Shown: in pieces, positions 6,047-20,053 of the stretch
Layout of the letters: each line of letters opens with the position of its first letter
Numbering within the stretch: the stretch's first letter is position 1
Assembly: GCF_029223525.1 (NCBI RefSeq)
Contig: NZ_JARHTQ010000001.1
Location: forward strand, 1-64,000
Direction of reading: 5' to 3'
DNA from: Streptantibioticus ferralitis
GTDB lineage: Bacteria; Actinomycetota; Actinomycetes; Streptomycetales; Streptomycetaceae
Length of the DNA stretch: 64,000 nt
The notes under the pieces: generated by a model
Seen by the model: the letters and a program-made list of their open reading frames with translations, nothing else
Told to the model about the DNA's origin: nothing
The model's database searches: none
Position numbers and translations under genes: made by a program

Positions 6047-6770
6047 GCCGCCGCTCCGCACGCTTGCGCCGTCGGCCCGCGATCGGCCCGTACGCCGCGC
6101 CGCCGAGGATCAGCACGACTCCCGCCGTGACCGCCGAGGCGATCCAGGTGATCGGGCCGGGCTGCGAGACGCCGCCGGGCAGGGCGGCGAAGGAGCCCGG
6201 GCGGGTCACCTCCTTCAGCTGGCCGAGCGGCCAGACGGTGGCGTCGACGCGGGCGGCGACCTCGCTGCTCGGCACGGCTCCGTGGTCGCCGTCGGCCAGG
6301 TGCACCCGGGAGTCCATGGAGACCTGGCGGTTGTCGCCGAGCATGAACAGCTGGCCGCGCGGGACGGTGGTGGCCGGAATCGGCGCCTGGCCCTGCTGCA
6401 GCAGATACGGTTCGCCGATCGGGGCGCCGTTCACCGTCAGCCTGCCCTGCTTGTCGCAGCAGGCGATCTTGTCGCCGCCGACGCCGACGACCCGCTTCAC
6501 GATGGGTTCATTGCCCCACTGCGGGTCGTTGAACACGACCACGTCACCGCGGCGTACCTCGTCGCCCTTGATCCGCTGCGCCAGCACCCGGTCGCCGGGG
6601 TTGACGGTTGGCTGCATCGAGTCGGTGGGCACGGTATAGGGCCGGTAGACGATGGCGCCCCAGACGAATCCGCCCAGGAACAGCAGACAGCCAAGGGCCA
6701 CCGCCAACCCGGACAGGACGGTGCCCAGGCGGCCGCTGCCGCTGTTCGCGTGGGTATCCCGGCTGCTCAT
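6027..6770 (-). CDS. sipZ: Type I signal peptidase (SipZ position)
   Basis: A membrane-bound type I signal peptidase that cleaves Sec/Tat signal peptides outside the membrane. It has one N-terminal membrane segment (LSGLAVALGCLLFLGGFVWG). Catalytic serine is in VPTDSMQPTVNPGDRV, general-base lysine in PIVKRVVGVGGDKI, and box E in MLGDNRQVSMDSR. A second hydrophobic segment near the C-terminus (ITWIASAVTAGVVLILGGAA) is followed by an arginine-rich tail. The ATG at 6770 is preferred because AGGG lies 8 bases upstream; an earlier GTG has no spaced site. It is the most divergent of the four and the last in the array, matching the sipW-X-Y-Z order described in Streptomyces lividans. Confidence 0.9.
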   Translation of the reverse strand: MSSRDTHANSGSGRLGTVLSGLAVALGCLLFLGGFVWGAIVYRPYTVPTDSMQPTVNPGDRVLAQRIKGDEVRRGDVVVFNDPQWGNEPIVKRVVGVGGDKIACCDKQGRLTVNGAPIGEPYLLQQGQAPIPATTVPRGQLFMLGDNRQVSMDSRVHLADGDHGAVPSSEVAARVDATVWPLGQLKEVTRPGSFAALPGGVSQPGPITWIASAVTAGVVLILGGAAYGPIAGRRRKRAERRRVLARA

Positions 6771-15192: not shown

Positions 15193-16026
15193 ATGACACC
15201 CATGCTCGTTTCCTCCGCGCCCGGGCTGACCGGACGGCCGGAGCGCACCGATGGCAGCGCGCGTGACTGGGCCGAGATCCAGGAGCGGATGCTGGTACCG
15301 CTGTACGAGGCCGTGTACGAGCGGCTTGAGGTCGGACCGCAGACCCGACTGCTGGGGGTCGGCTGCGGTGCGGGACTGGCGCTGCTGCTGGCCGCCGCGC
15401 GCGGCGCGGCGGTGACCGGCGTGGACCGGGACGGGCGGCGGCTCGCGCTGGCGCGCGAGCGGCTGCTGCCCGCGCCGCAGTGGGGTGCGCGGCGGTCCGG
15501 TTACGGGCAGGCGCGGCTCGCCCTTGGGGGTCCGGAGTGCGCGGCGGCGCAGTGCGGGTCCGCGTTCACGGTGGTGACGGCGTTCGATCCGACGCTGCCC
15601 GCCGAGTGGCTGGTGCTCGCGCTGCGGTCGGCGGCCGGGCTGGCGCGGCGGGGTGCGGCGGTGGTGCTGGCCGGTTGGGGGCCGCCGGAGCGGTGTGCGA
15701 CGGCGCATGTGCTGCGGGTCGCGGAGCGGCTGGCGGGGCTGGCGGAGCCGGTGCGGGTGAGTGCCCGGGATGATCTGGAGGAGCGGGCGCACGACGCCGG
15801 GCTGCGGTTGGACGGTTCGGGGCGGGTGGCGTGCCCCTTCGCGTACCCGGACATGGACAGCGCGGTGCGCGGGCTGGTCTCCACCGGTCTGTTCGACACG
15901 GCGATCGAGGCGACCGACCGCCCGCAGGTCGACAAGGAACTGGCGGAGGCCCTCCATCGGTACCGCCGCCCGGATGGCACGGTGCGGATGGAAAACGTCT
16001 TCCGCTATGTGGTCGCCCGGGTCTGA
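15193..16026 (+). CDS. SAM-dependent methyltransferase (class I, unknown substrate)
   Basis: A 277-aa class I methyltransferase. Motif I is RLLGVGCGAGLALLLAAARG at about residues 52-71, followed by VTGVDRDGRRLALARERL, the acidic residue that contacts the SAM ribose. The C-terminal half has a conserved HRYRRPDGTVRMENVFRYVV ending. ATG start with TGAGG 7 bases upstream. It is the only plus-strand gene between proS and the Uma2 gene. The substrate cannot be predicted; a small-molecule or natural-product-type methyltransferase is as likely as an RNA or protein one. Confidence 0.85.
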   Translation: MTPMLVSSAPGLTGRPERTDGSARDWAEIQERMLVPLYEAVYERLEVGPQTRLLGVGCGAGLALLLAAARGAAVTGVDRDGRRLALARERLLPAPQWGARRSGYGQARLALGGPECAAAQCGSAFTVVTAFDPTLPAEWLVLALRSAAGLARRGAAVVLAGWGPPERCATAHVLRVAERLAGLAEPVRVSARDDLEERAHDAGLRLDGSGRVACPFAYPDMDSAVRGLVSTGLFDTAIEATDRPQVDKELAEALHRYRRPDGTVRMENVFRYVVARV

Positions 16027-16619
16027 GGCCCGGACGACACCCCTCTCGAAGCGTCGCGGTGGGTTCGGCACCGCCGGTCCACGGCGTCGTGGTCGCTCGC
16101 CATCACGGCGGGAGATCATCAGGCCGCCCGGCCCGGCACGGACGCTCCCGTCGCGACGCGGATTTCGGCTCGCCGCGGACGGCCTCGACGGGGGGACTGC
16201 CCGGTTCGGCGCCGCCGGTCCACGGCGTCGTGGTCGCTCCCGGTCGGGGCGGAAGATCTTTGCCGTCCGACCCGGCAACCGCCCGTTCCCGCCAGAACGC
16301 GGCCCTCGGCCCGCCGCGGAGGCCGCATCGGGTCACGGCCGGTTCGGCGCCGCCGGGGTCCACAGCATCGCGGCCGCTGCCCGGAAACCGTCCGCCGCGA
16401 CGGCGGGCGGCGCCCGCGGCGGAGCCCGGCGGAAACAGGCAGCGCGCGACCCCCATCAGCACGCGACCCACGGGGTTGCCCACCGCACAGCGGGCCACCC
16501 GGCCCGGAATCCGGAACGATCACGGAGGACTGTCCGCCGCCACGGCGAGCCCCCGAAGGGCGGAGCCGGGCGCAACCCGCTGGAAGGCCGCACCCGGTGG
16601 GCCGGGCGGGCCCGTGGGG
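16027..16619. repeat. Gene-free block with ~140-bp degenerate tandem repeats
   Basis: No credible gene lies in these 593 bases. A 37-base element beginning TTCGGCACCGCCGGTCCAC recurs at about 16064-16100, 16205-16240 and 16343-16380, spaced 141 and 138 bases. The sequence between copies is also related (GGAGATCATC/GGAAGATCTT, then CTCGCCGCGGACGGCC/CCCGCCGCGGAGGCC), so this is a diverged tandem array of a ~140-bp unit. Related elements occur near 45.8, 57.8-58.0 and, weakly, 62.5 kb. Confidence 0.7.
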
Positions 16620-17170
16620 CTAGTTGTCCGGGCGGTCCGGGCGCGGGATGCCCGCCGTCCGGTACGCCTCGGCCTCCTCCGGTGTTTCGCGTTCCAGCAA
16701 CGCCTTGGCGAGGGCGTCGAGTTGGGCGCGGTGGGCGGTGAGGAGCCGGCACGCCTCCTCGTAGCACTCGTCGACGATGCGCCGCATCTCCGCGTCGACG
16801 GCGTCGAGGGTGGCGGGTGCGGCGGCCAGACCGTAGGCCTGCTGGGCGTCCTGCGGGAGGGCGGTGAGCGGGCCGATGCGTTCGCTCATGCCCCAACGGG
16901 CGACCATGCCGCGCACGATGTTGGTGACCGGTTCCAGGTCGCGATGTTGCCCGCGCCGAGCTGTTTGCTGAACTCGGTGTACGAGATCGACTGGCTCGTC
17001 GGGCCGCCGAAGAACGACAGCAACGCGTCGGTGATGAGGAAGACTGCGAGGGCGGTCAGGATCATGCCGCCCCAGCCACCCATCCGACGGCGCGGCCGCT
17101 GCGGCGGGGGCGCGCCCTCCGACCGCCACGGCTGATCCGGGCTCTGTCGGGGCGGTACGGGGTTGGTCAC
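16620..17170 (-). pseudogene. Internally deleted ftsH-like gene remnant
   Basis: The two ends of an FtsH AAA+ metalloprotease are present, but the middle is gone. From a GTG at 17170 one frame reads MTNPVPPRQSPDQPWRSEG, a basic proline-rich stretch, a membrane segment (GGMILTALAVFLITDALLSF) and the FtsH periplasmic start SISYTEFSKQLGAGN. At about 16940 the similarity jumps, in a different frame, to the extreme C-terminus of FtsH: LEPVTNIVRGMVARWGMSER, the DAQQAYG and RRIVDECYEEA segments, ending at 16620. The AAA+ domain (Walker A/B, SRH) and the HEXXH zinc site are absent. The frame change means that even the residual ends are not one open reading frame. Confidence 0.85.
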
Positions 17171-17240
17171 GCCCCGACCATACGTACAGGCAGTGACAGG
17201 TGCCGGGACCCGCATCCGGAACGTGCGCGACCGCGGGGGG

Positions 17241-17756
17241 TCACAGGCCGGGCCACTCCTCGGCGGTGAGCGCGAACCGCTCGTGGTCCCGCCAGGCGTC
17301 GTTGATGTAGAGCATGCGCGGGGAGAAACCTTCGTGCCGGAACCCGAGCCGCTTGGCCAGCGCGATGGAACGGACGTTGTCCGGCTGGATGTTGATCTCC
17401 AGCCGGTGCAGCGCCAGACCGTCGGGGAGTTCGCTGAAGCACCTGTCCACCACCTGCCGCATGCCCTCGGTCATCCGTCCGGTGCCCGCGTACGGCAGGT
17501 ACGAGTCATAGCCGAGCACACCGTTGCGGAACCGGGCGCGCACGATGTTGGTCACGTTGCACTTGCCGACGATGCCGCCGTCCGCGCCGTCGATCACGAG
17601 GAACGTCTGCAGCGACGGGCCCTGGTTGCGCAGCAGTTCGGGGAACCCGTCCGGGTCGACCGGGTTCCACGCGCCGATGTGCTCGGCGGACCGCACGACG
17701 GCCTCGGCGTAGGCCGCCGCGTCCGATGGCCGGGGCGGCCTGATGTGCACGCGCAT
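17241..17756 (-). CDS. GNAT family N-acetyltransferase (RimJ/RimL-like)
   Basis: A GNAT acetyltransferase that moves an acetyl group from acetyl-CoA to an amine, of the RimJ/RimL ribosomal N-terminal acetyltransferase subgroup. Visible are the N-terminal IRPPRPSDAAAYAEAVVRSA, the P-loop-like acetyl-CoA site (PYAGTGRMTEGMRQVVDRCF), and HRLEINIQPDNVRSIALAKR then LGFRHEGFSPRMLYINDAWR, the standard family ending. From the ATG at 17756 it is about 171 aa. It follows ffh by 22 bases on the same strand and is probably co-transcribed with it. The substrate is unknown. Confidence 0.85.
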   Translation of the reverse strand: MRVHIRPPRPSDAAAYAEAVVRSAEHIGAWNPVDPDGFPELLRNQGPSLQTFLVIDGADGGIVGKCNVTNIVRARFRNGVLGYDSYLPYAGTGRMTEGMRQVVDRCFSELPDGLALHRLEINIQPDNVRSIALAKRLGFRHEGFSPRMLYINDAWRDHERFALTAEEWPGL

Positions 17757-17778
17757 GGTGTTCTCGTGCGGCACCCGG

Positions 17779-19329
<1,551 letters not shown>

Positions 19330-19501
19330 GGCGTCGCGGGTCCTCGTGTCGGGGGCGGGCGGATATCGCCCTCCAGGGTATCTGGCCCGTCCAGGTCCGG
19401 TCTCCATCGCGGTGCGAGGCCGCTTCGCGGCTGGATCTTCAGACGGCGGCGCATATGCGCGTGGGACAATGACGGCGTCGTCGAACGCCGAGGAAGTGAT
19501 C

Positions 19502-20053
19502 ATGTCGATCCTGGACGACCTACGTGCCAACCCGCACGCGGACATCAAGACCGAGGGCTACGTCATCGATGTCGTCGACGGAAGGGTGATCATGACCCCC
19601 CAGGGGCCTGACCGGGACGACACGATCTTCGATGTCCGCAGCCAGATCCGCGATCAATACGGTAAGTCCGTGAAGACCGCGTCGGATGTCTTCGTCGACT
19701 TCCCCGGCGAGACCTCCTTCGCACCAGACGTCGCCATCCTCGACGCGGACGCCGTACGGCACGGCAACAGGTACGTGTGCACGAACGTTCTGGCCGCGGT
19801 TGAGTTCGTCTCGGTTGAGAACGACGTGAACGACTACGTGACGAAGGTGGCCAAGTACGGCCGCTTCGGCATCGCCACGTACTTGATCATCGACCCGTTC
19901 AAGCAGGTGTGCACACTCCTCGAAGGCCCGACGCCCACGGGATATGCCGAGCGCACGGAAATCCCCTTCGGCGAGCATGTGGAACTGCGCCTCGCGGACG
20001 GCCGGAGCATCGACATCGACACCAGCGATTTCCCCGATCGCAAGGCCAAGTAG
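19502..20053 (+). CDS. Uma2 family (DUF820) putative restriction-endonuclease-fold protein
   Basis: A 183-aa member of the Uma2/DUF820 family, which has the PD-(D/E)XK nuclease fold and is expanded in cyanobacteria and Streptomyces. The signature is FAPDVAILDADA, then AAVEFVSVENDVNDYVTKVA and KYGRFGIATYLIIDP. The ATG at 19502 has GAGGAAG a few bases upstream. It lies divergently from ffh and convergently with glnD (7 bases between stops), splitting an otherwise conserved gene neighbourhood, which suggests a later insertion. Nuclease activity has rarely been shown for this family. No partner toxin, antitoxin or transposase is next to it. Confidence 0.88.
   Translation: MSILDDLRANPHADIKTEGYVIDVVDGRVIMTPQGPDRDDTIFDVRSQIRDQYGKSVKTASDVFVDFPGETSFAPDVAILDADAVRHGNRYVCTNVLAAVEFVSVENDVNDYVTKVAKYGRFGIATYLIIDPFKQVCTLLEGPTPTGYAERTEIPFGEHVELRLADGRSIDIDTSDFPDRKAK

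Follow-up and report, generated by a model that had tools for sequence, protein, structure and literature searches.

A probable pseudogene of the ffh-linked FtsH gene in Streptantibioticus ferralitis, retaining both ends of the gene without its catalytic middle

The window (the whole 64-kb stretch of S. ferralitis DNA that was analysed) includes the conserved gene order ffh, GNAT acetyltransferase gene, ftsH and convergent methyltransferase-like gene, in which the place of ftsH is occupied by the remains of that gene (Table 1). Most of the relatives examined have the methyltransferase gene opposite this slot. In the window, 70 bases separate the GNAT gene from the FtsH start. The window was searched throughout by tblastn (E up to 1e-5), using the intact FtsH of the congener G002 as the query, and only two matches were obtained. 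Residues 1-79 of the query matched 17170-16943 with 92% identity (E 1.3e-40), and residues 533-642 matched 16952-16623 with 87% identity (E 5.8e-53). These E-values exclude chance, and there is no stop inside either match, the TAG stop of the C-terminal piece being at 16622-16620. Hence, both ends are derived from FtsH, as had been proposed in a first-pass annotation made from the sequence alone, which also expected an N-terminus of about 75 codons (76 were found) and a change of frame near 16940 (located at 16943/16942). Its estimate of about 95 codons for the C-terminal piece holds when counted from GMVARWG, but is too low for the piece as a whole.

Table 1. Features at and around the FtsH remnant (positions in the 64-kb window).
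Feature	Position	Strand	Evidence
Methyltransferase-like gene, convergent, downstream anchor	15193..16026	+	Methyltransf_25/11, weak
Enlarged intergenic stretch between remnant and methyltransferase gene, 593 bp	16027..16619	.	~62 bp (G002) and 164 bp (G001) between matches
C-terminal piece of FtsH remnant, ~105 codons and TAG stop, in a frame differing from that of the N-terminal piece	16620..16942	-	87% identity, Peptidase_M41
ORF of 169 codons (GTG at 17129) with the C-terminal piece in frame	16620..17129	-	TIGR01241 62 bits, cut-off 600
ORF open from the old start, 94 aa: 76 FtsH codons and 18 out-of-frame codons, then stop	16886..17170	-	
Deletion junction, blunt, frame shifted	16942..16943	-	1,369 / 1,366 bp gone relative to two congeners
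N-terminal piece of FtsH remnant, 76 codons: GTG start, basic and proline-rich leader, first membrane helix, SISYTEFSKQLGAGNI	16943..17170	-	92% identity and nucleotide comparison
GNAT acetyltransferase gene, upstream neighbour, resembles RimJ type	17241..17774	-	Acetyltransf_3 E 1.6e-16; NF008072 70.7 bits, below cut-off 190
ffh, signal recognition particle protein, conserved upstream anchor	17779..19548	-	TIGR00959 568 bits, cut-off 473

The N-terminal piece is 3 codons shorter than in relatives, the difference lying within the proline-rich stretch, and scored 23.1 bits against the Pfam family FtsH_ext, below the cut-off of 25.5. The ORF containing the C-terminal piece matched positions 85-187 of the 191 in the Peptidase_M41 profile (E 2.5e-22); the upstream part of this ORF is the N-terminal piece read in the wrong frame. 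No NCBIfam match was found for the 94-aa ORF. Both ends are thus like those of the FtsH family of ATP-dependent zinc metalloproteases (TIGR01241, PF01434 / PF06480), but the version in the window differs from this family in lacking the AAA+ and catalytic parts and in its low TIGR01241 score. Neither piece includes Walker A or HEXXH, in agreement with the first-pass annotation, which had reported the Walker motifs and HEXXH site to be missing. Of the N-terminal membrane anchor and the extracytoplasmic domain, only the first helix and the domain start remain. The Walker A, Walker B and SRH arginine motifs of the AAA+ module, present in both congeners, are absent from the locus, and the HEXXH zinc site that characterises peptidase family M41 is deleted. 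A functional mini-FtsH composed of the two ends was rejected, as these are in different frames.

The two other genomes of the genus that were examined, G001 and G002, carry a complete gene of 641 and 642 codons, respectively, at the same spot and in the same gene order. The encoded proteins include GPPGTGKT, AIIFIDEID, RPGRFDR and HESGH, and that of G002 passes TIGR01241 with 706 bits. A search of solved structures with an intact orthologue returned the expected FtsH chains. The identity of the two pieces and the shared gene order define the sequence in the window as a descendant of the gene at the orthologous site, and its reading frame is wrecked by a lesion that is absent from these relatives. 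Base-by-base comparison with the congeners gave the join as GGCAACATC directly followed by GCGACCTGG, with 1,369 bases missing from the window relative to G002 and 1,366 relative to G001, both leaving a remainder of 1 modulo 3. The suggested loss of more than 1 kb by one internal deletion is upheld by syntenic intact genes in both congeners, and the alignment to related FtsH sequences recommended at that stage resolved the junction to a blunt join. The missing stretch corresponds to protein residues ~80-535, which comprise the second membrane segment, the AAA+ ATPase, the zinc site and all of the extracytoplasmic part beyond the N-terminal piece. There is no microhomology at the join, zero bases being common to both ends, which excludes a collapse between repeats as the cause and points to homology-independent end joining as the deletion mechanism.

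Three M41 matches were found in the S. ferralitis genome, namely the remnant and two complete FtsH genes on contigs C42 and C33, both of which include Walker A, Walker B and HEXXH; the search for an intact ftsH elsewhere, also recommended in the first-pass annotation, thus had a positive outcome. The two complete proteins are ~46% identical to the ffh-linked FtsH used as query, and the orthologues matched in the family are at least 71% identical to it, so that orthologues and paralogues are cleanly split. When the deleted middle (1,291 bp as DNA) was sought in the remainder of the genome, the 40 scored of 358 first-look candidates included only paralogues at 71% and scraps of 114 and 40 bp. 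No transfer of the middle to another genomic place was found among these candidates.

The distribution of the ffh-linked gene was examined in the family. With the C-terminal part as query, 144 of 297 genomes gave a match at E 1e-25, including the window and the broken copies in G009, G035 and G155. With the whole protein, 72 of 150 genomes matched at E 1e-170 with the identity noted above. The lowest of these matches, that of G073, extends over residues 2-559 and includes a stop; four further matches have one internal stop each, which is probably the gene's own end; among the matches with an internal stop, G110 was checked. Frame breaks or a stop in G148, G198 and G073 may be sequencing faults, and these copies were scored as full, as was L028, which has a frame break near residue 175. 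Among 38 loci fetched as gene-bearing, 34 have ffh on the fetched stretch, and FtsH directly follows ffh or the ffh-GNAT pair in 33 of these, with no other searched-for gene intervening. The exceptions are L023, situated where its contig ends, L139, with ~3 kb between the genes, and three loci that have no ffh in the stretch (L126, L134 and L142). In some intact orthologues (L032, L033, L041-L043, L046, L051, L052 and L060) the second Walker A residue is altered, giving GSPGTGKT, GAPGTGKT or GLPGTGKT versus GPPGTGKT. Eight of 23 matches at E 1e-190 in 296 genomes of the class, own family included, lie outside the family (57-66% identity), and linkage to ffh was seen in none of the eight stretches fetched (4.8-10.5 kb, some ended by contig ends).

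Fifty of the 153 genomes without a match were chosen by listing and handle number, hence not at random, and examined for the state of the slot. All 50 have ffh, and in 49 no FtsH was detected beside it at E 1e-4. The empty slot is bounded by the methyltransferase gene in 37 loci. In the other 13, of which seven belong to groups g2 and g5, this anchor was not seen in the stretch and the slot is incompletely bracketed. In a scan of the 50 loci for scraps of FtsH, two of which have intervals too short for the purpose, only one hit, in G052 (E 2.7e-14), was accepted; sense-strand hits at E 0.01 occurred in 7 loci, equal to the 7 obtained with reversed controls.

Four family members besides S. ferralitis have partial copies. 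In G009 of the sister genus (locus L064, reverse complement of 6435-6752, ffh on the plus strand), residues 1-31 are fused in frame to residue 571 onward, giving an ORF of 105 codons in the slot that consists of the ends only. In G035, pieces remain around residues 125-284, 339-406 and 536-638. The copy in G155 has a good C-terminal part from residue 362 and a stop within 78-315, and nothing matches ahead of residue 78. G052 retains residues 1-45 only. As the breakpoints differ, the broken copies look like separate events.

A tree of ffh DNA was built from 90 loci (54 lost, 36 full), the five exceptional loci named above having been dropped for lack of ffh from the 95 tried. It requires 16 changes of state, as compared with an average of 28.3 when the labels were shuffled, and at least 10 changes between presence and absence are forced by its well-supported branches. 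The tree represents one gene, was made by a quick method and does not tell whether a given change was a loss or a regain. However, losses are the simpler reading since the full copies are mostly at one site and several of the loci scored as lost retain remains, and loss rather than gain is thus favoured on most branches. The loss is not peculiar to the lineage of the window, but one of many in the family.

In an M41 search of 38 family genomes, each was found to have one high-scoring copy covering the full profile. No second M41 match was present in 18 of the 20 genomes with an empty slot, and the remaining two have a copy of a third type; one FtsH thus suffices for many members of the family. 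The third type (M41 E ~1e-49 to 1e-57) is scattered, being found in 6 of the 38 family genomes and in all three genomes of the genus of the window; it is represented by the C33 gene (L012) in S. ferralitis and by two copies (contigs C7 and C19) in G009. It was considered as a possible compensation for the loss, but was counted in 5 of 25 genomes lacking the ffh-linked gene and in 4 of 16 possessing it, the types being separated in this count by M41 score and place only, and there is no sign of such a role. The distribution, together with a study of an S. lividans FtsH3 that is probably the same gene (see below), suggests that the ffh-linked FtsH is a dispensable extra copy in this family.

Changes in the retained codons were assigned to branches by parsimony. 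The branch leading to the window has 7 nonsynonymous and 16 synonymous changes, far below the nonsynonymous share of 69-74% expected under neutrality (P 1.8e-5 to 1.8e-4). This ratio does not differ significantly from the 6:10 of two sister branches (Fisher P 0.74, based on few changes) or from the 2:10 of the GNAT gene of the same genome (P 0.45). So most of the divergence predates the deletion, and the gene was under selection over most of the branch. As the retained codons are still constrained, the deletion looks recent; relaxation is not visible because the deletion is too recent or the changes too few.

Taken together, these data are best explained by a pseudogene of an ffh-linked extra FtsH, inactivated in the fairly recent past by a single homology-independent deletion of ~1.37 kb within the gene, a reading to which we assign a probability of about 90%. 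The collapsed ftsH with its ends kept and its catalytic middle deleted, as described in the first-pass annotation, thus stands both as an observation and as an interpretation. A single event would have removed the catalytic middle and shifted the frame of the gene. Its loss would have been tolerated through redundancy, since the genome still has two intact FtsH genes and this copy is often absent or broken in the family. In kind, the locus resembles ordinary internal-deletion pseudogenes of a redundant paralogue, which likewise show a single deletion, a shifted frame and retention of other copies; what is unusual in comparison with ordinary bacterial pseudogenes is that the gene is repeatedly absent or broken at one site in the family.

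It is improbable that the gene is intact and that 1.37 kb was dropped by the assembler. The assembly is a draft of 110 contigs, and retained codons as constrained as those of intact relatives are likewise expected from a false join. On the other hand, there are no bases common to the two ends from which a collapse might arise, the middle was found on no other contig among the candidates scored, and other genera have independent lesions in this gene. Even less credible is a continued use of the short ORFs, i.e. of the 94-residue membrane-anchored peptide of the window or the 105-residue protein of G009, for instance as a decoy joining or inhibiting FtsH hexamers. The window peptide does retain the start, the basic leader and the membrane helix, the ends in G009 are fused in frame, and the codons are below the neutral expectation not only in the window but also in the C-terminal part of G009 (12 nonsynonymous and 14 synonymous private changes, P 0.0027). 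However, one protein could be made from both ends in the window only by frameshifting, and a recent deletion can itself explain the constraint. Moreover, the breakpoints differ (~79/537 in the window versus ~31/571 in G009), which argues that no common product is preserved, and in G023, of the same genus as G009, the slot is empty (a 27-bp interval, too short for the scrap scan). Within the pseudogene reading, it is doubtful, though less so than either of these alternatives, that the loss was repeatedly favoured rather than due to mere drift; the gene would then encode a conditionally costly protease beside the SRP gene, deleted perhaps ten or more times in parallel, with the window among the freshest cases.

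SCO5586 of S. coelicolor is presumably ffh, although no paper stating this was found in the open-access literature. SCO5587 should then adjoin ffh, and we take SLIV_10535 of S. lividans to lie at the matching place in a reversed numbering. As judged by these locus numbers, SCO5587 and SLIV_10535 probably are the same orthologue as the ffh-linked gene. SCO5587 is termed an FtsH homologue and is reported to interact with the kinase PkaI (PMC4416010), which agrees with the intact ftsH that the first-pass annotation placed in this neighbourhood of S. coelicolor. According to PMC5994538, FtsH3 (SLIV_10535) of S. lividans is expressed at 6.46 TPM and FtsH (SLIV_20750) at 2,528.62 TPM. Growth was affected significantly less by deleting ftsH3 than by deleting ftsH, and each of the two mutants showed increased diamide sensitivity while producing a secreted reporter (PMC5994538). 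If this is the same gene, its weak expression and mild deletion effect would fit a dispensable extra copy. In these two papers, SCO5587 and SLIV_10535 are treated as functional, whereas the gene in the window is broken.

As a membrane protease FtsH is of central importance, and why Streptomyces has several is described as unexplained in PMC5994538. No paper describing the repeated loss of the ffh-linked FtsH was found in the open-access literature. The ffh-adjacent site, with many empty slots and partly erased copies, is a natural experiment, in which secretion, envelope stress and sporulation can be compared within close pairs of which only one member has this FtsH. The locus should be annotated as a pseudogene, not as a small FtsH. 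While the pseudogene is ordinary in kind, its added value is in the repeated and still visible erosion of one FtsH copy in a family known for secretion.

The intergenic stretch downstream of the remnant is several times longer than that of the congeners and contains 2.3 tandem copies of a 141-bp unit (16062-16384). No structured RNA was indicated by folding of 16030-16625 (z-score -0.51), and Rfam gave nothing up to E 1 in 15900-17300. Upstream, the GNAT gene of G002 (L009) has ~48 bp more than that of the window or G001. Within the tandem repeat stretch, a dispersed repeat of ~58 bp (GGTTCGGCACCGCCGGTCCACGGCGTCGTGGTCGCTC and flanks) occurs at 16053-16111 and 16203-16239, which we guess might be a REP-type element. 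It is present in many copies in each of the three genomes of the genus. The surrounding 586 bp gave 41, 44 and 27 matches in these genomes, own locus included, with 40 candidates scored per genome, a minority of the matches being to other parts of the 586-bp query.
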